This document shows, piece after piece, positions 5,627 to 63,934 of a stretch of DNA of 64,000 nucleotides (the first letter of the stretch is position 1; the number at the start of each line of letters is the position of its first letter). A program made the translations under genes and the position numbers. The notes under the pieces are model-generated. The model was not told where the DNA came from. It worked only from the letters and a program-made list of their open reading frames with translations, and made no database searches. The stretch is from Tubulanus polymorphus (Eukaryota > Nemertea > Palaeonemertea > Tubulaniformes > Tubulanidae): positions 4,278,501 to 4,342,500 of the forward strand of contig NC_134035.1 in the NCBI RefSeq assembly GCF_964204645.1, in the 5' to 3' direction.

Positions 5627-8600
5627 CTAGACGGTACTTTCGAGAAGTCGAATCATAGCTTTGATTTTAACATTATCGCGTTCGTCTAACTTCTTTCTGG
5701 CGAGCAGCGCATCTTCGATACGCTCCAGCGTTCCCGGAGCTTTACGGTTCGAAAACCTCCCCTTCGTATCGCGTAGTAGATTCAACCAACGCATTTCGGT
5801 GACGATGTCGTTCAGTTGCTGCTTCGTGACAGCGATGAATTTCGTAGAGACGATCGCCTTTCGAATGGAAGAAACGATATCGCACAATCGGGATTGCGAA
5901 TCGGGACGCGATAATGGGGGGATCGTAAGCGAAGCTAGCTCGTCGCCGTACTTCTTCAGCATACCGAGTGCCGCCAGTTGGACGGAGTTTAGCTTATTGC
6001 CTCGTATGTTGTCGATCTCTAAGTCTAGTCGCAGCCTGTCGATTTTACTGAGGGGGTCGGCGTGCAGCTTCCGATAGCATGCAACGAATTCTTCTTTCAT
6101 TGCTTTCGCTTCTTCTTCGGTTGGACGCATAGATTTCTTTTCGCGGTCGTGGTATTCCCGGCAGCTTTGTAGCAATCGGGCGTATCGTCCGTTCTGGTGA
6201 AACGTTACGCGACAAATCGGACATTCAGGGAAGGACAGCTTTCCATCGTTGGCTCGAGACTCGATGCTCGAGTCCAATCGATTGACCTCGACGACATGAC
6301 CGCACTCGACGATCTGGACGAACCGTGAATCTGCTGAAAACTCGCCGTTCATTTTGACCAGAGTTTCCTTGTCGCACACAGCACACAATTCCGGACAGAT
6401 TTCGCCGCAAAGTCCGATGCAAGGATGATCGCAATTGGCGATGCGTTTGGAGCATGGCTTGTCACATGGGATACGGTCGCACTGCTCCCAGCACAGCCGT
6501 GTACATTTAGAATGCTCGCAGCCCAAACTGCACGCTTTCGTGCATTTCGTACACGGCTCCGAACAAGGTTGACTACAGTATCCATGTGAACACCTTGTTG
6601 TACAAGGATATATCGAACACTCCACGCTGTTTTTGAAAGCACACTCTATTCTAACTCGATGCGAGCAGAACATCTTCTGAACTATCTTCTCCTTGCAACC
6701 CTGGTGTATTCTCCCATACAAACAGCCCGAGCCGCAGATTCCTTGGCAGTTGTGACCGCACTCGAGGATTTGCGAACATTTCTGCTCGCAAACGATGTTG
6801 CCAGCGTCTTTCCAACAGGGTTCCTTTTGCGTATGGCCACATTCCAGTTTCCTCGTAACTGGTATCCTGTATTTCTGCTTGTACGTTGCCGCATCTTTAC
6901 ATAGTACACGCTTAATAGAATGGTCACAGGGTAACATCAGCTTGACACGTTCTTCGCACGGCCCACACGGTTCCCCGCATTGCTTTGTACATATGTGGCC
7001 GCATGGCATTGGAATGTCACACTTTGAATTACAAGTAATCGCTTTGCCCCTCATGTGACAACTTGCCATTTGGACGTGTCTGCACGCAAGCCTATGTTCA
7101 ACTTGCGTCATACAATCGCCGCACGATATCTTACAAGGTTTCGTGCACGCATGGCCGCACGGCAGCTTCCTCGAACAGGCTTTGTCGCAAACGATTGGTT
7201 CTGTGTTCCGTGAACAGGGTATTAACTTGATGTGCTGACACGGGAGCCACTTAGGTACAGGCTCAGAACACCAACAAGGTTCGTTGCATCGTTTTTGACA
7301 CTTTGTCTCGTGCTCGCACTTGTTCGTTCTGGTGCACATCTCGATACACATCAATTCGGTTAGTTTCTGGTTGCAAGCTACGTTTTGGCGACTATGGCCA
7401 CATGGCAACTTTTTCGCTACCAATGTCGGACACGGAGGGCATTTTTCCCAACACAGAAGTGGACATTTGTGTCCTTCGGAACAAATCACTTTTGTACAAG
7501 GCTTCTTGCACTTGAACAGTGAGTGCTGAATATCATCGAGGTGACATGTTCTCGAACAGGTGTGTCCACACGTTAGTCGCGTGGTACATGGCAATGTGCA
7601 GCAACCTTGTGGGAACCGGTCAAAGTCGGACGGTTTGTTTATCAAAGAATGTTCATTATGAGGGTGATTTTGACAGAATATTTCCAACGACGGACCGCAT
7701 GCTTCTTCCCTCTTGAGATCGGTGCATATCTTTTCCCACAGTGGACTGCGTTTTGAAAGATGTTTCAAATTTCCGATGACGTACAAGCCCAGCTTCGCTC
7801 TGGATAGCGCGACGCAAACTCTGTTCTCTATAGCCAGGAAGCCGATACGGTCCGACGGCTCGGAGCGCACCAACGACAGCACGATGATGTCATTTTCTTC
7901 CCCTTGGAAATTATCGACCAAAGTCAAACGCATGCCACCGAATTCCTTCTTCGGCATCTTCTTTTTCAGCTGGAACATCTGTCCAGAATACGGTGTAAGC
8001 ACAGTTATTTGCTCTTTTTCGTAGCCTTGTTTTAGCAGGTAACCGCACAGTTTGGCCACGTATTCCGCTTCGAATAGGTTATAGTGACTTTTAATTTCAG
8101 TCTCGGTACCTTCCGGCTCGTTGTGCGTAACGAAGAACATATCCTTACCCATTCCTTTGACGTGATCGTACATCGTCACTGATCGGTCGTTCTTCAGTTC
8201 CGGGTAGATGTGTTTCATGAGCGTGGCGATTAGCGGTCTCATTCTGTGCTGATACTGTAGACACTTGTATTCGACTTGATTATCGATCATTCTCTCGAAA
8301 AACGAAATGTCCAAATTGTAGTTTTTTGACAATTCGTAAACGGTCGTCGACGGCTTCAGTTGTTTGTGGTCGCCGATCAGTACTAAATGCTCGCAGTTTT
8401 TAGTGAGAGACGTTATGATGTGCGACTCGAGCACCTCGGCGGCTTCCTCGACGATGGTAACGATCGGATGGATATCGCGCAGCAGCAGCTGAAGTCTTGC
8501 AGCCGCTGTCGTCGTCATTCCGATGATCTTCACGCCTCGTAAGATGCTCACGTCGATCTGGTCTTGGATTTCTCGATAGAGTTTGCATTTCTCTTCGTAC

Positions 8601-11600
8601 AGAGCTTGTTTCTCGGCAATACCTCGTAGATGATTCTTCACGTTCAAATTTACCCAATAACGGTAAAGACGCCACCTATCGTCGATACTGAGTTCCCAGA
8701 CATTACGTACTCGCATCACCTCGTCCGCGCTCATCAGGTCCTTCGATCTCAGCTGTTCTTTGACGAACTTCTTTGTCGCCTTTTTACTTCTGGTCACTGT
8801 CTGCCACCCGTCAGTCGCCGCCGGCTCTTTACTTCGACGCGCGATGTCTCCGGTCGTCGCTAGGATATTAGACATCGTCGGTTTCGAGTTCTTTCGAACA
8901 TGCGCGAAATCGTCCTCTCCGTCGAAATCGTTGTCGAGCATGCGTTGCTGTTCGGCGATTATTGCTTCGTCATCGAAATCGAGTCCTTCGTCATCCTCGC
9001 TCGAATCTGCATCTTCCATACATAGCCACTGAACCAGTCTGTCGTCGGTGTCTAGTTCCGCACTCATATTTGCATTCATCGCCGCTCCCAGCGATTCTGC
9101 TGACATGACGTTTCGTTTCATTCGCAGCGCGTACGTCGTTCTCAGCGCTTCCGTATCGCCAACCGTTCGTTGCAGTTCTTTAATCACACACTCCTTTACT
9201 AGGTAATTGTACAGATACCATCTTTGTTCCAAGTTTAGCAACCATACATCTTGTATGCGGTCCACTTCGAGACGACTATTCATCATCACGTCGTTTGTTT
9301 TCAGGAGTCGTAATCTCTGTCGAATGAAATCCTGTTTGGAAGGTTCCATTTCACCGAACACCAACCATTGTATGCCGGGATGTTGTTCTTTCTTAACGTT
9401 TCGGTCAATTTCGCAAAGCCATTTGATCAGCATATCGTCATTGAGCTGGGCATTTAACGTCGGGTTCATGAAAGGTCTTAATATTTCAACGGAGACTATT
9501 CCTCCGTCTAAATTTGCAATTTTTGCGCTGAGGGCTTTTATTTCATCTTCCATTGCGCCAATATCCCGGCGGGCTGCCGTGACCCCGTTGAACATATCTC
9601 GCGGAAGCTTTTTATCTTTGCGTAATTTAGCTTTGATATTCTTCAGCAAAAACGGCTGCATGGCTTCGTTGGCGCTGCGACCGCCGATTCGTACGATCGA
9701 GTCAGACTTGTCCAGTAGAAATTTAGTTATTTCCTTTAGAAACTGATCGAGTGCGTGGTTCGTGTAGCACACTAACAAAATAGGTTGGGAATTCTCGTTC
9801 CATCGTTGCCAATTATCAATCAGAATCCGCACGAGTGCCAGACCTACATAGGTTTTTCCTGTGCCCGGAGGACCTTGTATGATTGCCAAGCGTTTACTCA
9901 AAGCGAGCATGAGAGCAGCCCGTTGCGAATCGTCCATTCGAAGCGCCTCCGATGACAACCACGTTTCTTGTCTTAGCGGCCTCATAGTTTGGCGTCGGTT
10001 TCCGCCGACGATACTCGAGAGGTCGTAATTGGTTTCTCTAGTGAGGTATGTCGGCGCTTCGACTTTCGGCTGACAGTGGACGATGTGTTCCGCGAAAGGC
10101 ATGTTTCGCTCGGTGAACCATTGAAGTCCGCGCAGGACGTGTCGACTCGCTTCGAAATAAGCGGTCGTCTCGACCATCACGTACGTATAGTCGACCACGT
10201 CTTGTACGTCCTCGTCGAACTTTTCGAAACGCACCCGGATATCGCCGTCGCTCCGAAGTTTCTTCAAATCCCGACCGACCACCGTACAGAACAGTACGCG
10301 TTCGAAGTTGTCCCTCGAAAGGCAGAGTAACGAACCGTAAATCAACCGCTTGCTCGACTCCCAGCGCACTCCTTTTAACTTCTCGACGTTGAAGCGAAGT
10401 GTATGTTCTAACCCGGATAAGGTGCACGTCGGTGGCATTACGATGCGTACGTCCGAATAGACTCGGATGTTCTGCAGTTTCCCGGTGCGAATCGGTTTCT
10501 TGTATTCTTCTATTCCTTCGCGTAAAGGACGGATGAAATCCTCGCGAAGCAGCCGGAAATTGACGTCCAAGTAATGGTCGACGTCGACGAAACGACCCTT
10601 GGCGATGTTACGCCGTAGGAACGGTTCCGCGTCGAAGGCAAGATCCCGCGGCTGGGGAAATAACGAAATCGCGCGGTAGTCATCCGGGGGCGTTTCGAGG
10701 TCGTTGTTCGGCACCGAGTGCCATCTACGCATGGCGCCACCGGTAGACGGTGTTGGCAAATTGTTTCTGACAATCTCGTGGACGTGTTTCTGAAGTTCGT
10801 GAAGTTTTTCGATCATTCGCGGTGAAGGCGGATGTCGCTCACTTTTGACGACCGTATCGATGACACCTACGACCAGGAAGACGTCCTTGTGCGAGACACT
10901 GGGAATACGCGTCAACAATACGCCACAAATATCCATCATGACGTTAATTGACTTCTGACCTGCATCACCAGTGGCCTTCATTTTCGCCAGATAGCCGACC
11001 ACCGCTTTCGACAAGAACTCCGAGTCGACCATCATCGTCAGACATTCCAACGAACAGTGTCCGGTCGATTGACCGGGACAAGCCTTCATCCATACCTCTA
11101 AAACTAAGATAACTAAATCTGGTTTTTTATCGAAATTACCCTTCAGCAGATTCATCACTGGTTGCTTGTTACCGACCAGATACAGAGCCACGTCGGCGGC
11201 GTTTTCGTTCGCCTTCAGTTCGCTCAGTTTACGCCATCCTATTTGATAAGGAGGTCTCGTACCAGCTGCGCCTGAAACGCTGAATCGGGAAACGATGCAT
11301 TAGACAATACGAAGACATGCTTTAGGTAGATACCGTTTTGAGTAATACCTGAATCAATATCTACGTCAATTTCTATACACCTTGAATGGTACGATGGGTT
11401 GTATGAGAGAAATGCTTGGATAAATATCATCTGATAATATTCCATTAGAAATTTAAAATGTGATGCAGTGTTTATAAAAAACGCGCAATATTAGAACTTA
11501 ATAACGAAAATCTATTACATTTCCTTTCGGATTGATTACTTCTATATGTTATGAAGGGGGGTTTTTACTATAGTTCAATAGTCAAACGTTTTGGAGTTAG

Positions 11601-15129: not shown

Positions 15130-17085
15130 TTAAAAGTCGGTGTCTTCGTTGCTTGAAGACGATGATTTCTGGTTTAAATTTGCCGCCTCCATATCCCCAT
15201 CGCCATCGCTGTCGTCTGTAGATTTATGATCGTCTACTCGTTGTTCGATGACGACCGTTTTGACGATCGACTTACGTCGAGGCGTGTCGGAGTCAACGTC
15301 GCTGGCGTCCAGCGTTAGGTCGGCTTGAACGTCTTCCAATGCGTCCTCCAGCGATTTGTAAGCTTTCACCGTACCGCTACCGCCGCCGTTATCGCTCTTA
15401 TTCTTGTTTTTCTTCTTTTTCCGCAGCATCTTCGGTAATTTGATGTTGTTCAGCTGGCGTCGTATTCTGCCGTCGCTTCCGTCGCCTTTGCCGAAAATGA
15501 TAACCGGACGTTTGTACAGTATGACCGCCGCCGTCACGATTGCGCAGACGCCCAAAATACCGACGACCGCCCCGATGATCGCCCCGACCGGTGTCTGGTT
15601 TTCGACTTTCTCTATTTTCTCTTCAAGTAGGGCTTCTCGGTTCTGGAGAATTCGAAGTTACGATACAATTAGTTGTGATAGGACCCCAAATATATTAGTT
15701 TCAGATGATACGCCAAAATCGCCAAAGTCGTCTTGTAATTTGGACATCATTATGTTAACGACTTAATTGAAAAAAACAAATCGGGAATCAAAAATGGAAG
15801 ACGATTAAAGCGAGTTTGACTGTCGAAGGTGGTTTGATGTATATATGCTTCTATCCAAGGCTTATCGGACTGGTCTCTCTTTACCGATGAAAGAACGCTT
15901 ACCTCTTCTTCGTACAAATCATCTCTTAATTTCTCGACGATTTTAGCGACCTTTTTATTCGAAGGTTCATTCGCTTTCTTATCTTTCTTCGGGCTTTTCG
16001 AACCTATAATGCATATGAACACACAAGCCTTCATTCAAAATGTTAAGCTCGATTTCTTATAAGATCCAACAATGGATTTCATTAAAATCTTGCAATACCA
16101 TTGTATCAATTTGTCAAATTTGTAAGTGCACCCGTTGAGTTTCATTGAAATACACTAGGCATATACACACTTTAGCGGTGGGAATAGAACCTATCAGATA
16201 ATGTCAAAGTCTATTATAATCTGGTGTTGATGTTAGTATTAAAATGATTAATCAACCATTATTATCAGAACAACCTCCCTTAAATCGTTATCCTCATGTC
16301 AATGTTTCTCCGGCTCCAGGTCATTTTATCTAAGTAGTAACAACAGTGTAAGTTTTTGTAAGTTTATCTCTTTACCTATGTTCTACTTTCAACATTATTG
16401 TTACGAATAAAGATTCATAGATGATTAAGGGTAACCTCTAAAACATATAGGCCTGCCTACCTTCATCCTGGCTGCGCACTTCACTGATATCATCATCCCC
16501 GTCTTCGTCATTGCTCAAATCTTCCTCTGCATCGTCGGTATCAGAATCGTCGTCGTCGTCGTCACTTTCATCTGTTTCGTCTTCACCGTAATCTGGAATC
16601 CTCTCTGTATTGTATGAATGATAAAAGTTAATATGAAAGGCAGCGTTGTAGGTGTTTTATTCATATATTTGTATAGTTTGTACCATTTTCGTCCATTTCA
16701 TCTGTTTTTATGCTTTTGATTGTATTCCTTTTTTCGCCCGTCACAGATTTTGGCTTTTTAGTCGAATTCACAGCGACGACTAAAGATGAATAAAATGAAA
16801 TAATTGTTTTCCTGAATTATCTGTTGGGCTTCGGCGCTGGAGTTGTGGCCTAGTCTTGATTGTGTCCATAGATAGGCGGTTCAACTTTGGTTTTGGTTTG
16901 TTCACTAAGAACCTCAGTGTTAGCGTACCACTGCAGGAGCTCTTCCGAACTGGGTGAACTTATTGCAAATCATAGGTAAATAGTTTCAAAAATTGGAGAT
17001 GTTTGTTAACGCTCAGGAAATTATAAACATGTATTTACTCACCTAAACCTGCCAGGAATAACAGTATCAACAATCGCGAATTCAT
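15130..17085 (-). CDS. Acidic type I single-pass membrane protein, family unknown
   Basis: Five exons: 17085-17043, 16779-16684, 16604-16461, 16003-15903, 15642-15130. All junctions have GT-AG ends and matching phases; 298 aa in total. Residues 1-18 are a signal peptide (MNSRLLILLFLAGL...). The ectodomain (to about 145) has an NST sequon, a Lys-rich piece, a run of Asp (six in DDDDDD), more acidic sequence and a charged likely coiled segment (ALLEEKIEKVENQ). A membrane helix follows at about 147-171 (GAIIGAVVGILGV). The tail of about 127 residues starts strongly basic (LRKKKKNKNK) and ends acidic and Ser-rich (SSSSSNEDTDF). No known enzyme or adhesion domain is visible. The charge pattern could suit calcium binding or adhesion, but this is speculation. 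Confidence 0.8.
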
Positions 17086-17568: not shown

Positions 17569-20500
17569 TCAAATTTCGATTTGTTTCTCTAAGCCATCCT
17601 GTCCTACGACGGTCAGCGATAGTGTAATGTTCGACGTTTCAATCCCCGACGCGCGACGGGTGGACAGTTCGTCCGGCGACCTGTATAACGGGTTGACGAA
17701 GTGAGCTTGCTCGTGCAGTCGCTCGAAATGGTTCCGCCTAGAAATGATATCGAGAAAACAAATCTTCTCAAGTGTGAACGAATCGGAATACTCATCATTC
17801 GAGCATTAAATCGTAGAGTGCCCTTTGCTGGGAAGTATCTGTATATCGCGAAAATGGGTGTGGCATTGCTTTACCTTCTACGGCGTTTTTCGAACGAATA
17901 ACTGACGCCGAATATAATCATCAAAACTATTAAAATACCGACACCAGAAACGATATATTCTGAAAAGTCGAGAATGATACAGTGTTAGATGATATTGATA
18001 AACTCGCATTATTATCAGCGTGGCTAATGAATTATGCCCCGGGGCCCGGTTTCACGAACGGGGATTAAGCCTCTAATTCAGGTTAACTTAAATGGCTAAT
18101 TCGATTTAGAAGTTTGAGGTTACTTTTCGATGCCCGTTTCACAAAAGTGAGTTAACTTTAATTCGTATAAGTTTAACCTGAAAATCTAATCGGCTAATTC
18201 GAATTAGTTGCTACGAAAATGGGCTACTAGCAAACAACGAATGCAAACAACGACAAAACTCAAATTGTTTGACAATACGAATAATGAAGATATTTATTAT
18301 ACAGACCTATACATTTTAACAAATTCCAAAACATTTTTAATTCGAATTATCACCTAATTCGAATGAAAAGTTAAACCCCGTTCGTGAAACCGGGGTTTAA
18401 CTGAATCGGAAACGAACTAAGTTAGTTAGCCGTTCCCCCGGGTTAAAGTGGATAATAGTCTATAGAAACCGGGCCAAAACAGTGTTTTGCCCAGCGCCGT
18501 CACCAGTGATGATAAACAATAGATTCTCAGAAATATTTACGGTAATTCCTTCTCCACGAGCACGGAGGATACCCTTTATTCAAGATTTGGTAAAGTGTTG
18601 AAACACGAAAAAATCACGAAAAACGCTTATTAAGAGTTTGACTAATTAAAACCCGCAAACAGTCTGATTGTTTACCGAGGAGTCGGCTTTCCCGTTCGCT
18701 TATAGTATAGTTGTACAAACTGGTCTGATAGGAAACAAAATCTTACAATAGTTTTACAGAAGGCAGTCTACTGACGACTGCGGAATAAGAGTATGACAAA
18801 AGGATATGTTATAGGTTAAACATTATACAGCGATGATAAATTTTCTGGTAACTTTTGGTAACTATAGTTCTATGAACTAACTCACAATGATGGTGAGTTA
18901 GTTCATATGGAGTGCCATACAACTTGCCATACACACGTAAGTGGCCATCCATTGACCAACGTTCGGGAGACTCTACCAATACTCCACACTGGAGATATGG
19001 TCTGCAGTCTGGATGTCGTCAAAAGCCGTCTCTCGGGGAAAAACTCCAGGGCCTCATTCTCCGTAAATCAACCCGTCTTTACGAGGAATTATCATTCCGA
19101 TTGAAACTATCGATAAGATGTTTAACTATGATATAAATGTCGCAATTGTAAACTGAAAATATATTTTAAACAACGTTGTGTCGTTTTATTAATCGAAATC
19201 AAGATGGCGGCTTTTTCAATCGGTCAGTTCAACAGAACAACTCGATATTGAAACAGTTTCTTCCGTAATCAATATCTTTATCTATAAACGGCTGATTAGA
19301 CGAACACATCAATTATAAGTCGGATATTGATATGTTGCGATTTGGATGCGATGAATCCGTGGATTAATAAAAGAAAAGATAACAATTTAACGAGTCATTG
19401 TATTATGCCATCAAAATAACCTAAAAGATCTAGTCGAAATGTGTACAGGGATAACCTAGTGTTTTATATACATAATATCGGTTAGACTATCGGTATTATG
19501 CCTGAATATACATGGACCGGATAACTGTATGTGTAATCTCCCAAAAATCATCCGAATTTTTTCCAATTCAACTGTTTTGAAATAAAGATCGAATTGTCAT
19601 AAACATAAATCGTCCTTTAATTAGAATATTTTCTCGCATTTATTATCGGTTAACCTAACCTAATGTAACAATTTAGGATTAAGTCAAATTGCAAGATATT
19701 ATTTATTACACTGCGTTGACATAGAATTCACACTTCAATTCCTGTGTCAGTGGTGACCTTTTCGGTTTCTCTCCCCATAATAAACGTTTGTCCCAGTTCA
19801 TTTCCTCTCTGGTCAATGTCACGCAAACAACGATGATACTTGAATTGGTTGACAATACCAGGGAAGTGTGATGAGAATACTACAGAAATTATGAGAGATA
19901 TATACAATCCAGAGACAAAGAGACTAATTCAAGTAATCAGAGATGATACAAACTAAAGGAAAATTAACGTAGAAACAGTTACACGCTAAAACAGATTAAA
20001 GAGAAGCAGTTAAGAGACAAACTAGGGGGCACTTAAATTTAAGACAATTGTGAATACAAGTTGATCGACTAAAATTGATGAGGGGAAATCAGGTGTTGAG
20101 TTTAACCAGTTTACAGAGGAATTTTTATATAAGTTTATTATGGGATGAAAAACCGATATTCGGAAACAACTGAATTATTACGGAGATTCCCGATCTCGCT
20201 GGTTATCGCTTATCGGCGCGTTACGTAACAAAGCGCTCGCCGACGAACCGTTATCGGCTTTAGGGCAATTACAACGCACATTCGACAAGAGCTGCACAAT
20301 AGCGTCCGTATTCCATCTCATCACACTTCCCTGACAATACCAATAATGAAGATATTTATAATGCAAGACCTATACATTTTTCGAATTCGTTGAAAATCTC
20401 ATTGGAGAAAGAATTCAAAGGAAACGAAACGATCAAATTCGATTACACCAAAAAAGCTTAAAATACTTGGCGATGGGCGCATTTGTGAATGAAACATGCA

Positions 20501-23500
20501 TTATGGGAAGCTTATTTGGAATTAACTATTTGGAATTAACTTCGGAGATAATTCCAATTAGTGAATTTTTCGCTCATTCGCGTTTGTCAAACAGATTTAA
20601 TACTCGAATTAACTAATTCGATTAAAACATCTTTAATTCGAATTATCACCTAATTCGAATCACCTAATTCGAATCAAAAGATAATCCCCGTTCGTGAAAC
20701 CGAGCCCAGGTGATTGCATATCTTACATGCATAAATCCAACGATTTAATAGATCGTAATTCATCTAAATCTCATCTTCAGAGAAACAATAAACAACACAT
20801 TATGATAGGCCTAATGAATTGTCATTTTTTCAATACTACTTCTGATGTAGAGAAATTTTTAACGCGTTGCATCGAAAAAAATGTAAGATATTATCAGTTA
20901 GTATCGGATTATCGATTAGATCACTTTCCCCGTTATAGACGAATATAGATATTAGAATGACCGATTTCAAATGATTCGGAACACGATAAAAGTATATCTT
21001 CGCGTGGATATTAACGAGAAAATAAACAACGGATTTACCGATTGGAATTCTGTACTCGGATTCGATTGAATATCCAACATCTGTAGAAAATTAAACGAAA
21101 TTGATTAGTGATGATGATATCGACTAGTCGATAGAACACGTTTCGTAATAATTCACTTGAAAATGGTTTCATTAATTTGAACGAGACTGTCGCTTGCTCG
21201 CTTGCTTACTATTGTTTAATGTAGATGTTATTCTCGGTTGTGTCGTGGTCTGTCGTGTGGAGGATGCTGTCAGTGGTGGTGAGGTTGTTGGTCTAGTTGT
21301 ACTCACAGGGTCTTCGATTCTCGTCGTGCTGACAGTCGTTACTGCGGATGTCGTCGTTGTTGCGGGTGATGAAGTGCTCGACGATAAACTCGTCGACGCC
21401 GTCGTCGTTTTCGGAATTAAATCTTGACAAAACATAAAAACGGCAATTACGATCAACGTTAAAACGCGACGATTCCTTCTTTGGAAATCGAGCAGGGGCG
21501 CTAGCAGAGGTATCGCGTATAAACTATTCTATTCTATTCATCGATACGGCCTTGGTGGTGCTCAGTTGGATCTTGGAAAATGATTACTCCAAGGCGGGAT
21601 AAGGTATGATGCTATTGCATTCAATTTGCTATCGCTGTTGAGTGGCAAGTGGATTCGAGCCCTCTTCTGACTGCTTACAATGTGCGGGCGACATTTCAAA
21701 TGTCGTGGTCCAATAGGGTTAGTCTTGGTAGACCGAGATCCGAACGACGCAAAGTAAAGATAAACAAACTAGAAAATAAGATATTCATCGGATTTTCGAT
21801 GCGGTTAAACACCTTTTTGCTGCAAGTAATAACCAACTGCGGTCGTTTCAGTATTAACAGATTTCCACAGACATCCACCGGCGCCTCCACACTGCATAAC
21901 TACGGAATACTTCGGTGAAACGTTCGGGGTCCGGCTGCGCGGGTCCCAACGCGTGTAGTTAGCTTCCATCCCTGAAACCATCGAAAAATAAAACGTAATA
22001 TTTGAATATGACCGCTAGAAAATTCACGACATAAATTCAAAACTCTAGCGTTTAACCTCATTGAAATGAAAATGAATCAAATTTATGATTGAATAGCGAG
22101 TTAAAAGGCAATCGTACTGTAATCCAGCTGTTCAGACCACGTCCATACTGCGAATGTTAGACCTATCCAATATTGGCGGGCTTCCTTTAGTCGGGAATAA
22201 AGTAGTCGACGATTGGCAGCGCTGTCTGGTGCTGCTAGATGTCCCTGCCTCGATTTACAAAACGAACGTGCCTCGTACCAGGTCAGTGGGAGGTCTTCGG
22301 GAACGTCGAAGCACTTTCCAGATTCGGAGCACTTTTCACCTTTGAAATCATACAGAGCGGAGTGATTTATACGGAAGAGCATTGCAGCTACGCGGGAGCT
22401 TGCACAATCGTGGTCATTAATCTTTAGACTGGTCTTACTATGTTAGACCGGCTACAGAACTAAGCTGGTCTTGGACTGGTTTTAAATCTAAGCCAGGTGC
22501 AACAGGTCCAGACTGTGCAACTGGTCCCTCGTATGTTTCGGTTGTTTTTTTTTTTAGTTAGAAAAACTAACTTTTTAACGAGAAGAAACTGGACTGTCTA
22601 AACTCGAAAAGTCAACATAAAATCTCGAAAAATATTTCCGTTGAATTCGAGTTAGATTTGGCAAATTTGTTCTCTGAAAAATGTTGGCATTTAGAGAGCA
22701 GTGCCATTAACGAGTATGGCGTAATAACCGACTGACTGTGCTAGGTGTCTGCAATGATTTTCTGTAGATCCGTGAAGAGTTTGACTGATAGCGAAGACGA
22801 ACCTAACAAAATAAATTCGCGAAATTCATAATTTACCTGAATATTCGCAGATGAAATAATATCGATCGATGCATTTTTGTTCGGTCCACGAAAACTTGTG
22901 ATAGTCGTAGTCGAATTCTATCGTAGCGCACGTGTATTGGAATTTGTTGGTGGTAGGACGGCCGGGTCGCCAGTCGGTGTCGTCCGTATCCGCGACACTG
23001 TCGGTGCCGATATCGTAAAGATAGTGCGCCGATCTGCCTCCGCAGAATTCTTCGGGAGATCCAGCGCACGGCTCCTTGCACCCGTTTATCGAAGACGACG
23101 TCGCTTCGGACATGTGCCACTCGGCGAAACAGTTACAATACCTGCCATCCTGCGTACGTGAAATACAACATTTGATTTGATTTCATTTTGATCGTATATT
23201 CTATGAATGATTATCGGAAATTTCATAACTATAGTTGAAAGTTAATGACATGTTTTTGATCCGGTCCTCCTTTATAGTTCGTTCTAATTTAATTGGCTCT
23301 AAGAGTTGACTCGCTGAAAATGCACTGATTTCGACTCAAGAGTTAGTTACTACTTTGGGACCGGATGGAGGCCCCAGGTTTCGCAAGAAAAAACGATTAA
23401 ACGATTGATCTAATTTCTTCATTATTAAGGTTTATCAAAAATCTATTTTGAAGTATATCTTTGCGTGAAACTTTACCCAGGATCAGATGCAGTTTTATCA

Positions 23501-25123
23501 CGTAAGTTACCGGACCCAGTTCCTCAGTTGTGAGTTGACTCCGAGTTAACTCTGTGGAACTGGATCCTGAGTTCACAGTTAACTCTAATTCACAACTTTG
23601 GAACGGGATCCTGAGTTCAGAGTTAACTCTCACAACTATAGAACTGGATCCTGGTTAACGTTGACTACCATTTGTACACAACTGTCCCCCAGCAGATCCC
23701 CTTTTATCGGTCTTATCGATGGATGCGGCGGAGTTTCTCGGCCACAATTTGTTCTATGGTTTCTACCACAAATCGAGAAAAAGAAACCTTTGAAATTGTA
23801 GCTATTTAAGGAATCATCAGTCTTTATTGAATATCCGGTTATCAAATAACTCGGCGACCACAGGTTCGTATTATTCGTGCGCTATTTCACCTACCCAAAC
23901 GGTTGCGTATTTCGTATTTTTTGACTTGCACGTGGTGATGCATATCTTCGGGCTCATGTCGTCGCTCTCTATCGACAACGTCGGTTCTAAACCTTTCACG
24001 TAATTGTAACAACCTTGGCTCGAAACCGTTCGCCGATCTTTGAAAGTATACGATATAAAAGAAATGATATAGCGTTAACTCTCATAGAACTGTTAAGATA
24101 ATCATCCATTCCTGGTACGCGTAGCTCGTTACTACGATTTACGATGGAAAATGCGAAAATCAGTCGCAGAGATCTCTTCGTAGCTACATTTTTATCATCC
24201 TCCTTCGGCAGGGATTCGAACCTCATGGCATCGCTACACTCGGCCACGGTACGAAACCCTGCCACACTAGACTGGGTGCGCAGGTACATGCCAAGGTTTA
24301 CCGCCCGAAAACTTGCAGCACCAATCAGATCCGGTCTGTTATATAAATTTCACGGAAGAACTATAAATGGGATAACCCGGGCTAAAACAAAACGGGATAT
24401 CTGATTGGCTAATAATGACATTCTATGCCGCGCGTGTAGCTGCACACTCGGTCTAGTGTGGCAGGGTTTCGTGCCGTGGCAATCTCGATGCCATCAGGTT
24501 CCTGTCGGGGAGGATGCCTTTTATAAATTAACTACCCCTTTGATTGATTTCCTATCAGTATACTGACCATGTTCCCAATGCCATTCTACTTGATGACCGG
24601 TCAGAGCCAGAGCTACGTTTCCATAAATATTCTCGTCTCGGGCCAATTCGTCCAGCAGATTCTGGCTGCCTTCGTCGGTTATGAGCCCGGACGATGGCCC
24701 CATTTGCGTTAAGTAGTAACAAACTCCCAGCTTTTCGTCACATTTTCGTTGTGCTGAGAACAAAACAAAGGACAATTTCATCACTGCCTCTAGGAAGGAT
24801 CGGTAACGTCTGTGAACAAATTTTTTGAAATCTCCATCGCTGATTAAACTTTGGGATTTTTATGCATGCTACATTGACGCTTCTATAGTCTACACTGATT
24901 TCGACCTTACGACCTGCCTTCGTTCGGACCTGTGGAATTACATAGAACTTTCTCAAATCATTTCGAAAATCCGCTCTTTCCCCTTTCTAAGTGTCGTAAT
25001 AGCCGACAAGCTCTGCTTTTCTGTTCAACCTTCGTTCAACTTACCGCTGTACTGCCCTAGAGAATAACCAAATAACAAAGTTATCCTTAAATATAGTAAT
25101 ATCGTCTTATGTGCATACGCCAT
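17569..25123 (-). CDS. Single-pass receptor: split C-type lectin with WSC, second C-type lectin, mucin stalk
   Basis: Nine exons: 25123-25045, 24753-24568, 24037-23895, 23149-22837, 22339-22118, 21971-21813, 21422-21210, 17959-17875, 17737-17569; every junction is GT-AG and in phase, giving 522 aa. Order: signal peptide (1 to about 24); first half of a CTLD ending VEWHWEH (30-88); WSC domain (97-182: GCYNYVKG, KICITTCKS, GRYCNCF, PCAGSPEEFCGG); second half of the same CTLD (WRPGRP, CATIEF, YYFICEYS, 190-239); a second CTLD (242-366: TWYEARSFC, YWIGL, WTWSE); a Ser/Thr-rich stalk (368-438); membrane helix (440-461) with RRRRR stop-transfer; and a tail with HFVNPLYRSPDEL. Carbohydrate binding by either CTLD is not assured: no EPN or QPD motif is seen. 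Likely a surface recognition or adhesion receptor. Intron 7 (21209 to 17960) is filled with transposable elements. Confidence 0.85.
18041..18396. mobile_element. TIR element (MITE), family B
   Basis: Ends GGCCCGGTTTCACGAACGGGG on the left and CCCCGTTCGTGAAACCGGGG on the right, followed inward by AATTCG-rich sequence. No transposase gene; about 356 bp. It lies in intron 7 of the WSC/lectin receptor gene. A second, interrupted copy ends near 20707 (TTCGTGAAACCGAGCCC), and a short palindromic relative sits at 58984-59083. Confidence 0.75.
18712..18815. repeat. Dispersed repeat (pair with 29367-29470)
   Basis: Shares GTACAAACTGGTCTGATRGGAAA, the (C/T)TAC... segment, a CTACTG-centred stretch, GAGTATG and AGGATATGTTAT in the same order with 29367-29470. 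No coding potential. Confidence 0.6.
19815..20707. mobile_element. Family B MITE copy interrupted by an insertion
   Basis: The outer parts (GCAAACAACGA...GGTTGACAATACC and ATAATGAAGATATTTATAATG...TTCGTGAAACC) match the interior and right end of the element at 18041-18396. Between them sits a 473-bp insertion. The left terminal repeat is not seen, so this copy is truncated on the left. Confidence 0.65.
19860..20332. mobile_element. Nested 473-bp non-autonomous element with 9-bp TSD
   Basis: It starts AGGGAAGTGTGATGAGA and ends with the inverse, TCTCATCACACTTCCCT, and is flanked on both sides by GACAATACC (19851-19859 and 20333-20341). A 9-bp duplication with short inverted ends suits a Mutator-like family; this is inference from target-site length. 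The inner right part (20178-20330) is GC-richer and has an open frame with no recognised match. Confidence 0.75.
22425..22505. repeat. Single copy of the TGGTCTTAA repeat
   Basis: Reads AGACTGGTCTTACTATGTTAGACCGGCTACAGAAC and on; it matches the unit of the tandem array at 49925-50465. It lies in intron 4 of the WSC/lectin receptor gene. Confidence 0.55.
23505..23655. repeat. Family A palindromic repeats, tandem copies
   Basis: Three or four overlapping arms (CAGTTGTGAGTTGACTCCGAG, GTGGAACTGGATCCTGAGTT, ACAACTTTGGAACGGGATCC, CAACTATAGAACTGGATCC) lie head to tail; a partial copy is at 23270-23355. They are in intron 3 of the WSC/lectin receptor gene. Confidence 0.65.
24196..24516. mobile_element. 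Foldback element with about 88-bp inverted ends, family C
   Basis: The left arm (24196-24283, CATCCTCCTTCGGCAGGG...GTGCGCAG) and the right arm (24430-24516, CTGCACACTCGG...GGGGAGGATG) are inverse complements with few changes. The arm contains GGTTCGAATCC on the minus strand, an exact match to the RNA polymerase III B-box consensus. No transposase is present. It lies in intron 2 of the WSC/lectin receptor gene. The arm's terminal 50 bases also form the tandem array at 46525-47200. Confidence 0.85.
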
Positions 25124-27570: not shown

Positions 27571-30500
27571 ATGGGACGCTATTTACCGGAGAAATACTTT
27601 AACTGGAGACTACTGCTGATGCGGCTGCTGTTGCTGATGCTGTTGCAGATGCTGGTGGTTTTCGTGTGTTTCCTCACACCGGTTAACGCAGGTACGTCGC
27701 GCCGACCTTTCCTCTTACACATTGACACGTGGCAGAACGAACGTTCGACAGTAGGCCTAAGTCGTCCTGACAGTTTTTTTTCCGGGGCTAATTTCGTTCC
27801 GTTTAAACGCACCTCAACGAACCGCGCTGCCGTATTTCAAATAACATTTCATTCTATATCATTTATCGATTTTTAATTTCGAAATTTTTAATTTTTGTTT
27901 AATGTGTAAGATGTAAAACTGCCCATCGCCGGTTAGGCTGCCGCTGCTGCTGCTGCTGTTGCTGTTAAATCCCTACTTGCCATTTATAACACAAGTAATG
28001 ATATCGTGCACTAACATTGGAAACAGATTTTGTCAATGCAAATTATTTTTGTGGACAATAAAATATCTACCTATCGAAATCGAGCGCTTTTAAGATTCAA
28101 GATGGTAAAAATGGGCCATCGTTTTGTATTCTATGCTTTATCTGATTGATAGTTTATTTCAACGGTCATAACACATCTGAACGCCTGAACTATAGAGTTA
28201 ACTATGAACTCAGAACCCAGTTCTACAGTGTGTGAGTTCGAGTTCACCCTGAGTTTGAATCAGGTCATTATCGATGAGTTGACTCGTTAGTCAAATCTTA
28301 ACTCACAACTGTAGAACTGGACCCAGCCCCACAATTGTGAGTTAGTGCTTTTTATAAAAGAAAGAAGCCTCTATCCCGAGTACCGGAACCGTATTTTTAT
28401 TAAACCTATTTGGATACCTTTGATCGGTGAGATGTCACCAACGGTAAAAATTGAAATGCGGCACCGGTCAATTTCAAGTTCAGGGAGGTCCACGTATGGC
28501 GCCAATCTGTTTCATGCCACATGCGTAACTAAACCTAAATTCCGAATGTACTATTTACTAATAGATAATGTTTGTATATTTTTTGGCACAGTAATACCTG
28601 CGTGCGTCGGCGCACAGAAATACCCGAGGTTGCAGATCTTTCCCGACGCCGAACTTTCCGGTTACGACGACATCATGTTCGAGGGCGTTGCGACGTTCGG
28701 CGGCTGTATCGACAAGTGCGAGCAGACGATTTCGGTGAACTGCGTGTCGATCGACTTCGGCGCCATCTCGTGTAGCATTTCGTCCGAATCGAAACTAACT
28801 CATCCGAACGCCTTGACGCCGACTATCGGATACACGCACGCCATCTATACTTGCGAAGACGGTAAATAGCATTTAATGCGAATAGAGAAAAATATTCGAC
28901 TATGTTGACATGTTGTTCATAGTTATGTAGAAGTGATATTGTTTAAATCGCGAATGTCGATAACAGTAGAAGTAGTCTTTATAACCTATAACCACACATG
29001 ACGATAGTCCAATCAAACACCGTAAATCCGTGTCAACATGAAAAAATTCCCACAATAGAATCTTATGCGATTAAGATTTGTGAAAACGAAAAACGACAAA
29101 TCGCTCATCATCAGATGGAATGACGGCTGATTGAGGTCGTTGGTCGATAGCCGATAAGCTTCAGTTTTGTTTCAACTGATCTTTTGGATTTCATCGCATA
29201 AAGACTTTACTGTCGGACTTTTTCATTCGTCTTACTTATAACGACGTTTCTATCGTCGCCAGGTGTGTTTCACGATGCAGTAATTCGCTGTATTCGTGTA
29301 TGTGACCCATTCTCAGAATACAGACCTAATATTTCAGTATTGTATCGTATTTTTTACTCATCATAGTAAGTACAAACTGGTCTGATGGGAAATATAATTC
29401 TACAAATATCTACCATATGGCACTCTACTGGATATGGCGCAATGAGAGTATGGATGAAGGATATGTTATGAATTATCCAAAGAACGTTCATTTTCTGATA
29501 GTTACGGTTCGATGGCCCGGAGAAGGAACTTCGTTTGAATACTTCAATAAGAAGGCATCCTGTACCCGGTTCCACAGTTGTGAGTTAGAGTTAAGTCTGA
29601 GTTAAAATTAGTTCATTTCAATTAGTTAACTCAGGGTCAAATTTTAACTCCGAACTGTGGAACTGGACCCTAATTTGTAATATTGGTTCCATGAGTTATT
29701 AGCTAGTAGTGACTAATGAATTTGCAAACGGATGGATTGCCAGTTAGTAGTAATCACACAAAAGTTCCTTTTCAGGGTCTCAGCGTGCATTCCATTAATT
29801 AACACATGACATTGGTCTTCGACTCCCAGTAAATCTAACATTAAAAATGATAATGTATTTCATCGTTAACATGTGTTACAGTATGTCCTAATGGAGAGAG
29901 CGGCGTGTGGACGGCCTCGAGCGCAATAATGACCGGTAATGACCAGGCATCTACGCAGACGGTGGACTTGCAGGAGTGTCTGCTCGTCTGCAAGAACCAG
30001 TCGAAATTCTTGTGTCGCTTCGTCGAGTTCGAGTCGTCGACTGGGAACTGTCGAATGAGCCGCGACACGTTGACCACGAGACCCGACCTGGCGGTCGTTT
30101 CGCTAGGATGGACCGGGCACACGTTCAGCTGTAACCGTAAGATTCGAATATGAAAATCATCTTTCGTCTGGTTTTAACGACTGAAAATTCCCTAATTGAC
30201 TATTAGCAAAACTGACGCAGTCGAACCAAAAGCTGACAAAAAACGCCCAGCCTGGTTTGAATAGGGCTGTTTCTTTGGCTGAAAGAAGCCCGGCAATTGC
30301 ATCTGCAGGGGCTTATTTTGCGAAATAATCCAAGGGAGTCCCAGACTCGCCAATCGCCACTCGTGGATATTGCTTCTCTGCAATAATCACTGCTTTTTTC
30401 ATCAGGTGGTACCTCTCAAATTATTACCTGGTTCCGCCCCTGGGAACCGTTAGTGAGTTATTCGTTTTAGCTTTTAAAGAACAGCTCGTAAATCGTTTAG

Positions 30501-31303
30501 TTTTTGAACGTCTTTTGAGACTTGGTCAATACTTTTTACAGGCACGTGCCCGCCGAATGTTCAGCGTTGGGTGTCATTGTCATCAGGTCTCGGCGCTGAT
30601 ATCAACAACAACAGCAAAATAGTGCTGACGCCAAGCGCCGACGTTTGCAAAGAATACTGCGAGCGAGAATCTCAATTCGAATGCAATTTCGTCGAATTCT
30701 CATCGTCTCTGGGCCGATGTCGCCTGAATAGCGAAACTCCAATTACCAGACCCGCATCCACGACGACCGAGGTCGGGTATGAATACTTCATATTTTGCCA
30801 TCTAGGTAAGATATACATTATGATACAGTTAACTCTTGTCAAAATGAGCCCTACGCCCCAACCCCCCCCCCCCCGTTCCACGAAATCAAGTTCTAAACTG
30901 TAACGGTGATGGTGGTATTTTTGCAAGGTTTTACTCAGCTTAAAGCGCTGAGCAACAAATGCAGAAACAATTCACGTAAAGTTATTACAGATAAATTAAT
31001 ATCAGGCCCGTTCCACTGAACTAACATATCCCCCTCACCCCACGCTCATTGACGAAGTTCCACCCAGATGCCGGCCTTAAGAAAATTTGAGCATCGATTT
31101 CATGAGATTCGCTAATTGATAAGAGTTTCTCATTCGTTTTGTTTCAAAATACGCCCATGCTTCCAGACTGGCTCGATCTATGGCCAAATCGTCGGGTAAA
31201 GAAGCAAAACTTTCACCCAAATATGTTAGAAGTTGTGACAATGTTCTGCGCGACTATACTCGCCGGACCAAGGACATTTGCGTGGGTACCTCCACTGTCA
31301 TGA
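27571..31303 (+). CDS. Secreted protein with three PAN/apple-like modules
   Basis: Exons 27571-27691 (signal peptide, MGRYLPEKYFNWRLLLMRLL... to TPVNA), 28592-28861, 29882-30136 and 30542-30805, all in phase 1; each of the latter three exons is one module of about 85-90 residues. Modules share the PAN pattern: hydrophobic, TVxLQECLxxC, C-FVEFESSTGNCRM or C-FVEFSSSLGRCRL, and a terminal F-x-C. Module 1 has FGGCIDKCE and SCSIS. A last exon at 31167-31303 (DWLDLWPNRR... to VPPLS) fits in phase with a CAG acceptor, and an AATAAA follows at 31369, giving 348 aa; this exon is the least certain. PAN modules bind proteins or carbohydrates; the partner is unknown. No membrane helix is clear within the model. 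Confidence 0.75.
28190..28345. repeat. Family A palindromic repeat copy
   Basis: CTATAGAGTTAACTATGAACTC...ACTCACAACTGTAGAACTGGA and CCACAATTGTGAGTTAG; inverted arms around GAGTTGACTCGTTAG. It lies in intron 1 of the PAN-module gene. Confidence 0.6.
29565..29670. repeat. Family A palindromic repeat copy
   Basis: CCGGTTCCACAGTTGTGAGTTAG ... (long AT-rich centre) ... CTCCGAACTGTGGAACTGGACCC; about 105 bp with well-kept arms, perhaps the best-preserved copy. It lies in intron 2 of the PAN-module gene. Confidence 0.7.
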
Positions 31304-33265: not shown

Positions 33266-34336
33266 TTATGCCGAATTACACACGAATTTCAGGGGCGGCA
33301 ACTTTTTCACATCTCTACGGATGCCTGAACTGGTGGCGAACAGACAAATGATGTTCCCGGCGCTGTTGACGAATGTCAACTGATACAGCATTCCCATTAT
33401 AAGATATTGACGTTTTCGTTCTTCAACCGACTCGATGGCTAGCCAGTCCGGCTTCAGCAGACCGTACAGCGTGGTGGGTAAGCTCGTCGCCATGAACAGT
33501 GTGGTCATTAGGAAAAGACTGATCGTTTTGCTGTTCTGGGATTGTTGATTCGCCCTCGCCGGCTGATTCGTGGCCGCTTCTGCGTTAGTTTGTGGCCGCA
33601 CGGAACTTCTAAATTTCACCAGGCAATTCGCAATGATTGTACCGTTGACTACGAAAATACACGACGGTATGATGGAATAGATGAGCGTGTCCGCCAGCAG
33701 AAATGCTTGAAAGTGCGGCTTGAAAAACTGGAGCGGTTGGCAAATCCCGTCGGTGAGATCCATGCCGTAGATCAACGGCGAGTACGTCAAGGCGATAGTC
33801 GTGATCTGAATTAGGTTGACGGCCAACCAGACTTTCCTTCGATACCTGTAGCCGGTCGTGCTGACCAGATGCGTCACGATGAACAACCGTTCGAACGATA
33901 CGTTCACTAAAAGCCACGTCGACGTGACGGATAAAACAACGCGGATGAAGAAAATGCTTTTGCATGTGAACCTGTTCAAACTGATTATTCGCACGTTCAA
34001 AACCAGGCCTATACAGTACGGATAAAATGAGAACCAAATCGCCAGCAAATCGCAAACGCTGATGCCCATCGTTAGGATATTAGTGATCGACGTCAGGTAG
34101 GCGTTCTTCCTCAAAACGGCGATGCCGACAACGTTGACGAACGTCGAAAACGGTAGAAAGGCGCCCATTGTTACGTAGGCCATGAAAATTTCGGCCTGAT
34201 GATGATCGGCCGAGCTGTTCGTCAGTGGGCGGAAAGTGCCATTAACAGTCGGTGTCAGTTGTGTGGCGTCATCGGCGAATTTCGTAGCGATGGTATCACT
34301 CGGGGAGAGCGCATCTGCGGGTGTCGTCACCTCCAT
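33266..34336 (-). CDS. Class A GPCR, FMRFamide-receptor-like orphan
   Basis: A single-exon 356-aa protein with seven hydrophobic segments. The extracellular N-terminus (about 50 aa) has sequons NGT (32-34) and NSS (40-42). TM1 holds VNVVGI, TM2 the conserved Asp (SVCDLLAIW, D96), TM3 ends in FER (148-150) instead of DRY, Cys125 pairs with Cys199 of loop 2, TM6 has SLP (285-287), and TM7 has NSAGNIICLF (324-333) instead of NPxxY. It resembles invertebrate peptide receptors of the FMRFamide type; the ligand is unknown. The ATG at 34336 gives a normal-length receptor, and no upstream Met is needed. It should signal through G proteins at the plasma membrane. The short C-tail is unremarkable. Confidence 0.85.
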   Translation of the reverse strand: MEVTTPADALSPSDTIATKFADDATQLTPTVNGTFRPLTNSSADHHQAEIFMAYVTMGAFLPFSTFVNVVGIAVLRKNAYLTSITNILTMGISVCDLLAIWFSFYPYCIGLVLNVRIISLNRFTCKSIFFIRVVLSVTSTWLLVNVSFERLFIVTHLVSTTGYRYRRKVWLAVNLIQITTIALTYSPLIYGMDLTDGICQPLQFFKPHFQAFLLADTLIYSIIPSCIFVVNGTIIANCLVKFRSSVRPQTNAEAATNQPARANQQSQNSKTISLFLMTTLFMATSLPTTLYGLLKPDWLAIESVEERKRQYLIMGMLYQLTFVNSAGNIICLFATSSGIRRDVKKLPPLKFVCNSA

Positions 34337-35824
34337 CGCCGCTCGAGCTGAATGAAATCAACAGTCTCGACCGTCAGCCGCGCATCCAATTGAGACGTGA
34401 CGAAACAGAAAACGTCAATCGTTTTACCATCTACGACATAAGACAGCTTTCAAGAAGCGCAACTATACTGAGTAGAGACAGGTAGAAGATTTCGCACCAG
34501 GACCACCGAATAAAACTAAGAATTGAAAATACCGATTGACCCGGTTTTATAAAGAACTTTCAGCAAATCTTTTATCAGATATCAGAGGCGAAAATACCGA
34601 ATATATATTTCAATAGCTTTTTATAAATCGATGGAATGAATGAATGCCTTAAATGAAAAGTCCTGTACCGAAAGAACTATTTTCATATGGTTTTAGTTCG
34701 ATAGCTCGGATCATTATACCGTTAAATAATTTAAATTAACGAATCTATCTATCTATTTATTCAATGCGAAGCCATGTGTAACAACAGTGGAAATAAGTAT
34801 CTATATACGCGTGTACATCAATTTCATTTTTTTACAGAGAACACGTCAAACTCTGTGTGCTTAGTTATTATCTAAAAAAAAACTAGCAATCGTAAATTGT
34901 CTGCCATTTATCAGTAAGTTTACCATTTTATGTGACTAAATCAACCGTTATCGATATGTAAATTGTTGATAACATTTCTGAATGAAGATTATGAAGATGC
35001 GTGATATTTTCTGCTCATATACTTTGATTATACAATATCTTTCAGCACAACAAGGTATGATCTCTTCTCTTACTCTCTGGGCCATCTTTTCTATCTATAT
35101 TTTTCACTCTCCTTCTCTGGGCGGATTCAGTGGGACTCAAGGGTGGATATATGATTTTTGAAGGGGAGAGACCTGCAAATTAGAACGGGCGCTTATTTTG
35201 AAAATGGCGAGTTTGGTGATGGCTATAGGCCTAAGCGAAACATTGGCGGGGGATTCGGCGGGCCACCCACATAAAGTCTAGGACGCACATGGGACTTTCT
35301 GGCCCTTATCAGGGCTGATATGGATTTACTTTCCTTTTAGAATTGTCTTTACAAAAAATATTCTAGACTTTTTGGAGGGCACGGGTTGGACCGGTCCAAT
35401 CCCCAAAATACACCCTTGAGACTTGTGAGACTTGTGGAAGTCCATCAAATTTTGTTGAGCGGCCTTTTTCATTTTGTCAACAAAGATAATTGAAGCATTT
35501 TTTCAGTGCAGGCGTGCGCATGATATTGCCTTCGTGAACATCAAAGTGCCCGTTTAGGATGTGACAAGTTCTCCAGAATCGGCCTCTAGATCTGGCCTTG
35601 TGGTCTTTCTATATCCCCCTCTCCCACCTGTTCCCTCCCTTCCCTACCATCCCCCTCCCTCCCTATTTCTGCCTCTCCCTCCATCACCCTCTCCTCCCAT
35701 CACCCTCTCCTCCCATTCTTTTTATGTTATAAACTATGGCGATGTTTTGTGTTGGCCTAAATATCTTCCCAATAACAATATGTTTAACGTGTAATAGCAT
35801 GGAGAGAGTGTAATTGATTTCAGC
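34337..35824. other. Intergenic; pyrimidine tract near 3' end
   Basis: No gene seen. A C/T-rich tract (about 35610-35720, with CCCTCTCC, CCCTCCC and CACCCTCTCCTCC repeats) lies about 100 bases upstream of the start of the ependymin-like gene. It may serve as an extended polypyrimidine tract before the acceptor at 35823 or form non-B DNA; neither can be decided here. Confidence 0.4.
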
Positions 35825-42227: not shown

Positions 42228-43199
42228 TTCAGAGAATGTTCACGCGTCGTCACGTATGTGCGCTCGATAGCAGGCGCTTTGACTATAATTAATAGAAATA
42301 CAATTTCGATTTTAATGGGTTTCGTAAAAGCGTCGAAGATGTGCTAAAAGGTTTTAGTAAAAACGACATCCAGAGAGTTGCCCGATGATGCAGTGTGTAT
42401 GTATTTCATAATCACGATCACGATACATGTTTCGATAGTCACAATATTATCTAACCATTCGAGCCCGTGTGAGAAAGTATATACACCGGACAACGGTTAA
42501 TTCGTAGAGGAGCCGTGTTAACCGGGTTTAGAATAGATACGTAACGAGACAGGTTTACTATTTATTTGACGCACGAGCTTTCGCTACTATCGAATAGAAG
42601 CTTCATCGGGTGAATGAGCCAAGAACAATGGACAAGAGTTAGTAGATAGATTTATACAAGAGGCGTTGTTGCTGTTGCTCCAAATGTGATGAAGTACAAC
42701 ACCGGGTAATTCGAATAATTTTCCGAACCCGGTACAAGAATTAAGAACGGCCAATAACCTGCGAAAGGCATCCATCGATATGGACTCCGTAATCATATTG
42801 GTATAAGATCCAACTAGTGCTAAAAGTGAGGATCCACCGGCGGGTGCAACAGTACGCCGTGGGACATTCGATTTCTTCGAAAATAAGTAGAATCTATCCA
42901 AAGAGAAATCGCACATTTCTCTCAATAGTTATTAATCCCTTCTTTCTCAAGAAACGTATGTCTAACCATTCTGAAAATTTACACGTGTAAGAATAGCTAA
43001 CTTGTGTTTGATGTTTGATTAAGTCCAAAAAGATGGTTTTGCGAAGGATCACAGCGCACGTGGATAACACAGATTACGTCAGTAAAGTTTAATTAAGTTA
43101 CTGGTTGTCTAACAACAACGGACCTACATTTATATGTCACGCTGTCTCGACTTGACTCGTTTCTTTGATCTTGGACAAAAAATAGAATTTTCCAGCTAG

Positions 43200-46236: not shown

Positions 46237-63934
<17,698 letters not shown>

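Follow-up and report, generated by a model that had tools for sequence, protein, structure and literature searches.

In a 64,000-nucleotide stretch of the genome of the nemertean Tubulanus polymorphus (contig NC_134035.1, positions 4,278,501 to 4,342,500; hereafter the window), a seven-exon gene on the minus strand encodes a C-type lectin-like domain (CTLD1) with an entire WSC domain set into it, and a second C-type lectin-like domain (CTLD2) after it. The same nested order is found at at least nine loci, the window included, on four contigs of the assembly (C1, C3, C6, and C11), and sequence comparison strongly supports the placement of the WSC domain within a single CTLD rather than beside one. 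The reading that we favor, with a probability of roughly 0.78, is that these loci form a family of lectin-type receptors with a split CTLD1, in which entry of a WSC cassette was followed by duplication, the two halves of CTLD1 still make up one fold, and the products serve in recognition or uptake.

The gene in the window

The exons of the gene, in positions of the window, and a repeat element within its second intron are as follows.

25045..25123, minus strand: exon 1, start codon and hydrophobic signal-peptide-like leader (leader judged by eye), phase 1 at its end
24568..24753, minus strand: exon 2, CTLD1 N-half with two N-terminal Cys and the WxW block, without the alpha-1 region and C1, phase 1-1
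24243..24480, no strand assigned: inverted-repeat element resembling a miniature inverted-repeat transposable element, in intron 2 between the CTLD1 N-half and WSC exons, 49-nt arms that are 88% complementary with 140 nt between them
23895..24037, minus strand: exon 3, WSC N-half, phase 1-0
22837..23149, minus strand: exon 4, C-half of the WSC domain fused to the CTLD1 C-half (C2, C3, and C4), phase 0-1
22118..22339, minus strand: exon 5, CTLD2 N-half with the alpha-1 region and C1 present, phase 1-1
21813..21971, minus strand: exon 6, CTLD2 C-half, degenerate, without C3 and C4, phase 1-1
21172..21422, minus strand: exon 7, Ser/Thr-rich stalk-like segment, then an in-frame stop

Joined together, the seven exons carry AG/GT signals at every internal border and remain open for 450 codons before the stop, and all introns are in phase 1 save the phase 0 intron within the WSC domain. 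The initial annotation of this stretch had proposed a CTLD half, WSC, CTLD half order for exons 2 to 4, and these exons are confirmed here, with AG/GT borders and with phases (1-1, 1-0, and 0-1) that keep the reading frame. The 522-residue model offered at the time holds insofar as exons 2, 3, and 4 join in frame, whereas the length found here is 450 residues and the 3′ end is uncertain, since an alternative donor at 21209 could lead to one more exon. The border between the WSC domain and CTLD1 within exon 4 was placed by hand.

When the predicted protein is compared with Pfam, only Lectin_C and WSC score above cut-off. The WSC domain, which had been read as complete from exon 3 together with the start of exon 4, matches the Pfam profile over positions 2-82 of 82 (48.5 bits as an isolated piece and 43.3 bits within the whole protein) and contains eight Cys, which places it in the WSC family. 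With the WSC domain removed, CTLD1 matches Lectin_C at 28.2 bits over positions 22-106 of 107, and at 31.3 bits with a tighter cut, above the cut-off of 22.6 bits; of its two halves taken separately, the C-half scores 21.7 bits and the N-half gives no match. Six shuffled N-halves placed on the same C-half scored 20.3, 20.6, 19.6, 20.5, 25.3, and 21.7 bits. Chance resemblance of the N-half was rejected on this comparison (31.3 vs. 19.6-25.3 bits), which by itself is a modest test, and because the best shuffle still reaches 25.3 bits, the evidence for the N-half appears real but modest when the window gene is taken alone. In phmmer searches against the PDB, the N-half alone returned no matches and the joined CTLD1 returned 12 (best E 0.052), a single divergent sequence being a weak query. 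The earlier reading of exon 2 as the N-terminal half of a CTLD finds modest support in the joined match, which starts at profile position 22; the WxW block is present, and the alpha-1 region and C1 are missing.

The nested order elsewhere in the genome

The 268-Mb assembly, comprising 77 contigs, was searched with the WSC and CTLD exons, and loci with the same order as the window gene were found at the following places.

C6, 5.19 Mb: C6a, modelled CTLD1-WSC-CTLD2 paralog
C6, 7.89 Mb: C6b, modelled CTLD1-WSC-CTLD2 paralog
C6, 7.91 Mb: C6c, modelled CTLD1-WSC-CTLD2 paralog
C3, 4.27-4.28 Mb: C3a and C3b, tandem pair of modelled CTLD1-WSC-CTLD2 paralogs (last modelled exon of C3b at 8717-8876 in locus coordinates)
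C6, 3.16 Mb: L068, partial locus, same order, CTLD1-N read by eye from the frames
C1, 20.99 Mb: L029, partial locus, same order, CTLD1-C read by eye from the frames
C1, 21.01 Mb: L069, partial locus, same order, CTLD1-C read by eye, WSC-a placed except for its end

All five modelled paralogs contain the exon series CTLD1-N, WSC-a, WSC-b, CTLD1-C, CTLD2-N, and CTLD2-C with phases 1-1, 1-0, 0-1, 1-1, 1-1, and 1-1, the donor after CTLD2-N of C3b being weak. Splice signals of matching phases are present at the three partial loci wherever they can be placed, and at the two C1 loci the first part of CTLD1-N lies on a separate exon that is unjoined in the models. The count of nine is a lower bound, as nesting was assessed at only some of the CTLD and WSC places of the genome. 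A scan of eight loci with half-domain profiles placed WSC and CTLD exons together in three of them (L029, L068, and L069), and at the threshold used this type of scan detected no WSC at the CTLD loci L012, L030, L031, L066, and L067. Between the members of the tandem pair on C3, Nei-Gojobori (NG86) estimates over 349 codons give a nonsynonymous divergence (dN) of 0.337 and a synonymous divergence (dS) of 2.135, the latter near saturation; the synonymous excess fits purifying selection.

One domain interrupted by another

The case for nesting is carried mainly by the paralogs. After excision of the WSC domain, CTLD1 of every modelled paralog (five of five) gives a Lectin_C match that starts at position 2-5 and ends at 106-107 of 107, with scores of 47.1 (C6a), 36.0 (C6c), 43.1 (C6b), 35.9 (C3a), and 35.2 bits (C3b). 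The three partial loci treated likewise score 32.2, 25.3, and 22.1 bits; the N-half is incomplete in the second and third of these, and the lowest score is just below cut-off. A tandem arrangement of neighboring domains was rejected because CTLD1 without the WSC domain matches Lectin_C nearly end to end.

Comparison with known structures points the same way. With a profile built from the six excised CTLD1 domains, 202 distinct PDB sequences score E ≤0.001, and among the 60 matches listed, intact single CTLDs span the join as one stretch; lithostathine, for example, aligns over profile positions 4-126 of 127 (E 9.3e-14). In the partial alignments to the PLA2 receptor, the yolk sac IgY receptor, and DEC-205, the WxW block is closely followed by the next conserved Trp; between these two points, the nested genes hold 94-102 residues of WSC domain. 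The long loop region of a CTLD begins after the WxW block.

The distribution of cysteines also suggests a single domain. CTLD1 contains six Cys in all five modelled paralogs, aligned with C1-C4 present and divided three to each half, and the WSC domain contains eight in these paralogs as it does in the window gene; CTLD2 has six in four of the five paralogs. Because each half of CTLD1 carries three Cys, pairing of the eight WSC Cys among themselves would require one or more disulfides to cross the insert, and in known CTLDs the crossing disulfide would be C1-C4. The two halves of CTLD1 would accordingly form one domain held by this conserved disulfide, with the WSC domain standing out where the long loop region begins, an arrangement suggested by sequence and Cys pattern.

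Proposed origin of the insertion

A site of the kind that may have received the cassette is still present in the same genes. The intron of CTLD2 lies in phase 1, four full codons past the conserved Trp, in five of the six genes and contains no WSC exons, and thus resembles an empty site; the CTLD1 intron that holds the WSC exons likewise lies four codons past the conserved Trp and in phase 1 in five of six genes (exon ends were entered by hand for this comparison). Breaks near this position are common among CTLDs of this genome, judging from a survey that scored 150 of 342 candidates and deduced introns from match ends. Among the 99 Lectin_C matches obtained, 29 cover the first half only (ending at 52-71) and 24 the second half only (starting at 52-70), while 13 are whole, 23 start at 34-46, seven end before 52, and three fit none of these classes.

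WSC exons are plentiful in the genome, with 93 matches at E ≤0.01. The internal WSC intron of the nested loci is in phase 0, after YAG(V/L)Q or its equivalent (acceptor side only at L069), and at eight other WSC loci (L038, L044, L046, L049, L050, L052, L053, and L056) it looks to be in phase 1 and a few codons earlier. These eight were picked by eye among the rows listed and include two near copies (L052 and L053), other rows being ambiguous. Some WSC domains are intronless in one frame, for example at C4:24422387-24422629 and C6:4723981-4724223. A tandem array of near-identical WSC exons was also noted at C9:13941090-13944988 on the plus strand. The phase 0 intron common to the nested loci points to one entry with later duplication.

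The proposed course of events is that a two-exon WSC cassette, with phase 1 introns outside and a phase 0 intron inside, entered a pre-existing phase 1 intron of a CTLD after the WxW block, and that the host gene then duplicated; both the direction of these events and the single entry are what we infer from the intron pattern. At the eight other nested loci, phase 1 splice sites separate WSC-b from CTLD1-C, and the window gene alone has both in one exon. This copy has therefore most likely lost its WSC/CTLD1 intron, a loss that would have fixed the cassette in place, and it would also have lost some of its CTLD disulfide Cys.

Proposed function

EPN, QPD, EPD, and QPN motifs occur in none of the 12 CTLDs examined and WND in one, which speaks against calcium-dependent sugar binding by these domains; with EPN and QPD missing throughout, a canonical calcium-dependent sugar site is unlikely. 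The earlier proposal that the WSC domain sits in the sugar-binding long loop can therefore be retained as to position, past the WxW block and before the next conserved Trp, but not as to sugar binding.

The products of four paralogs (C6a, C6b, C6c, and C3b) resemble stalked type I membrane proteins, the stalk being mucin-like. In each, a Ser/Thr-rich stalk precedes a hydrophobic stretch with a Kyte-Doolittle mean of 2.93-3.20 over the best 21 residues, after which a candidate phase 2 donor is found beside basic residues. In C6a and C6b, the next open frame has candidate phase 2 acceptors and encodes a tail with the motif CDNPLY or CDNPIY. In other receptors, motifs of the NPxY type bring in adaptors for endocytosis or phagocytosis, and the nested proteins may be surface receptors for uptake or immune recognition. 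WSC domains are described as carbohydrate binding (PMC10140915). Given this and the missing EPN and QPD motifs, the WSC domain is proposed as the main glycan-binding unit, with CTLD1 serving mainly as a rigid holder at the tip of the receptor.

A more speculative idea is that the WSC domain is a removable loop cassette, such that one paralog gene makes either a plain or a WSC-bearing CTLD1 and a ligand bound to the WSC domain alters the long loop. We consider this unlikely; if true, it would mean that the specificity of a lectin can be switched through a second binding domain inserted in its own loop.

Alternative explanations

Several observations weigh against a family of receptors in which a WSC domain is nested in one folded CTLD1. 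The gene models were built from splice signals, phase, and homology alone, and the half-domain profiles missed CTLD1-N of L068 and CTLD1-C of L029 and L069, which were read by eye. Taken alone, four of the five paralog N-halves align with the first half of Lectin_C at 17.4-25.8 bits, one of them above cut-off, and the N-half of C6c scores slightly higher against Kazal_2 (18.7 bits, under the Kazal cut-off) than against Lectin_C (17.4 bits). The intron site varies in two cases, as the CTLD1 intron of C6b follows after six codons and the CTLD2 intron of the window gene after eight, and glycan binding by the nested WSC domain is a prediction. To these must be added the condition of the window gene itself.

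That the window copy is decaying within a family that is otherwise functional, its architecture no longer used, is the alternative that survives best, and we judge it unlikely. Its CTLD1 has lost the alpha-1 helix region and C1, both of which are kept in all five modelled paralogs in the alignment, and because C1 is missing, C4 is left without its usual partner. CTLD2, which the initial annotation had described as a separate, intact CTLD, proves to be neither full-length nor complete in C1-C4, as its Lectin_C match ends at position 79 of 107 and it has five Cys, with C3 and C4 missing. Cys counts for CTLD1, WSC, and CTLD2 are 5, 8, and 5. No membrane anchor for the gene was found among the hydrophobic minus-strand frames inspected; six such frames were listed and two (17874-17984 and 15133-15657) were judged plausible membrane exons, neither of which is joined to the gene. 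The second of these open frames contains a stretch with a Kyte-Doolittle value of 2.8 and a charged tail, and has no Pfam match at E 0.001. With CTLD1 lacking C1 and CTLD2 lacking C3 and C4, the window gene may be decaying. On the other hand, its seven exons are free of stops over 450 codons and all their borders are AG/GT, and at the two C1 loci, where CTLD1-N is only partly joined, this half likewise seems reduced, so that the reduction may be a trait of a subfamily rather than decay.

It is quite improbable that the WSC exons are alternatively spliced or separate, so that proteins carry either an intact CTLD1 or a WSC domain and the nesting, though present in the gene, is seldom realized in the protein. 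The phase 1 introns that flank the cassette in the five modelled paralogs do allow both WSC exons to be skipped with the frame preserved. The window gene offers no such skip, since the second half of its WSC domain shares exon 4 and exon 2 ends in phase 1 where exon 4 starts in phase 0, and in all six modelled genes the WSC exons are open and bordered by AG/GT.

Still less probable is the proposal that the CTLD1 halves do not belong to one domain, being relics of broken CTLDs or pairing, in a domain swap, with the halves of CTLD2 or those of a different chain. Such cross-pairing is imaginable in the window gene, where CTLD1 without C1 keeps C4 and CTLD2 without C3 and C4 keeps C1. It sits poorly with the full set of six Cys in CTLD1 of the five paralogs and in CTLD2 of four of them, with the near end-to-end profile match of the excised CTLD1, and with the unbroken alignment of the join in the PLA2 receptor, the yolk sac IgY receptor, and DEC-205. 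Finally, although all models were computed from the genome sequence alone, an artefact of assembly or gene modelling is hardly credible, and assembly error was rejected, as the same order at nine loci on C1, C3, C6, and C11 would hardly recur by such error.

Other features of the window and neighboring loci

Further open frames and repeats were noted in the window.

5627-11299, minus strand: single 1890-aa open frame; the part searched, 7502-9799, matches AAA_12 (132.5 bits) and AAA_11 (62.3 bits)
29854-30150 and 30508-30900, plus strand: PAN-domain open frames (38.5 and 32.2 bits), perhaps one multi-PAN gene
33266-34357 and 41247-42239, minus strand: single-frame rhodopsin-family G-protein-coupled receptor open frames (7tm_1, 44.4 and 65.9 bits)
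47626-48026: long triplet repeat, polyA, polyQ, or polyL depending on frame
60374-61387, minus strand: minisatellite-like repetitive stretch, open in several frames

Cys-rich repeats further along the 5627-11299 frame lead us to presume an NFX1-type zinc-finger helicase like ZNFX1. A search of the window for tRNA genes found none. Adjoining the C6a paralog, two open frames resembling G-protein-coupled receptors were recognized by eye (L009, 6675-7808 and 8162-9373, plus strand).

Relation to known proteins and significance

The two halves of CTLD1 together match Lectin_C (PF00059), with its six-Cys pattern in the five paralogs, and two CTLDs in series recall the tandem-CTLD receptors (PLA2 receptor, DEC-205, and macrophage mannose receptor). 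These receptors are also the best whole-chain PDB matches, scoring high partly through their many CTLDs. Unlike them and other PF00059 proteins, the nested genes have a CTLD1 split by a whole WSC domain, only two CTLDs, and no EPN or QPD motif in the 12 domains. The mannose receptor family (group VI) combines CysR and FnII with eight or more CTLDs, and the six gene models, with two CTLDs and one WSC domain each, fall outside it. A profile of the six nested WSC domains matches Kremen 1, in which the WSC domain (PF01822) has been solved, at E 1.1e-11. In Kremen, the WSC domain stands in series between kringle and CUB, in contrast to its position inside another domain here, and in polycystin-1, WSC and CTLD occur in one protein as separate domains.

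The combination of WSC and CTLD in one protein was already known from invertebrates, as the initial annotation recognized; a passage of PMC10140915 names WSC among the domains combined with CTLDs in bivalves, with its placement not stated there. The literature search found no report of a WSC domain nested in a CTLD among the papers listed, although an annotated case may exist in invertebrate-rich protein databases. Fish antifreeze-protein-like CTLD genes are reported to carry an intron downstream of WIGL, at roughly the place taken by the WSC cassette in the nested genes; the passages on this intron mention no inserted domain (PMC514892).

In the nested genes, the WSC domain is spliced into the middle of a CTLD. 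Exon shuffling into an old intron is the apparent cause, and this would be an unusual route to a receptor. As usually presented, exon shuffling inserts new domains between existing ones. Here a complete domain apparently entered an intron inside another domain and was retained as the gene duplicated to nine or more loci, and the empty site is still visible in the neighboring CTLD of the same genes. The family would thus provide a natural example of a domain inserted into a CTLD at its loop region, the CTLD being a fold in use as a variable scaffold, and it suggests a testable design for receptors that unite two recognition units in one rigid module.

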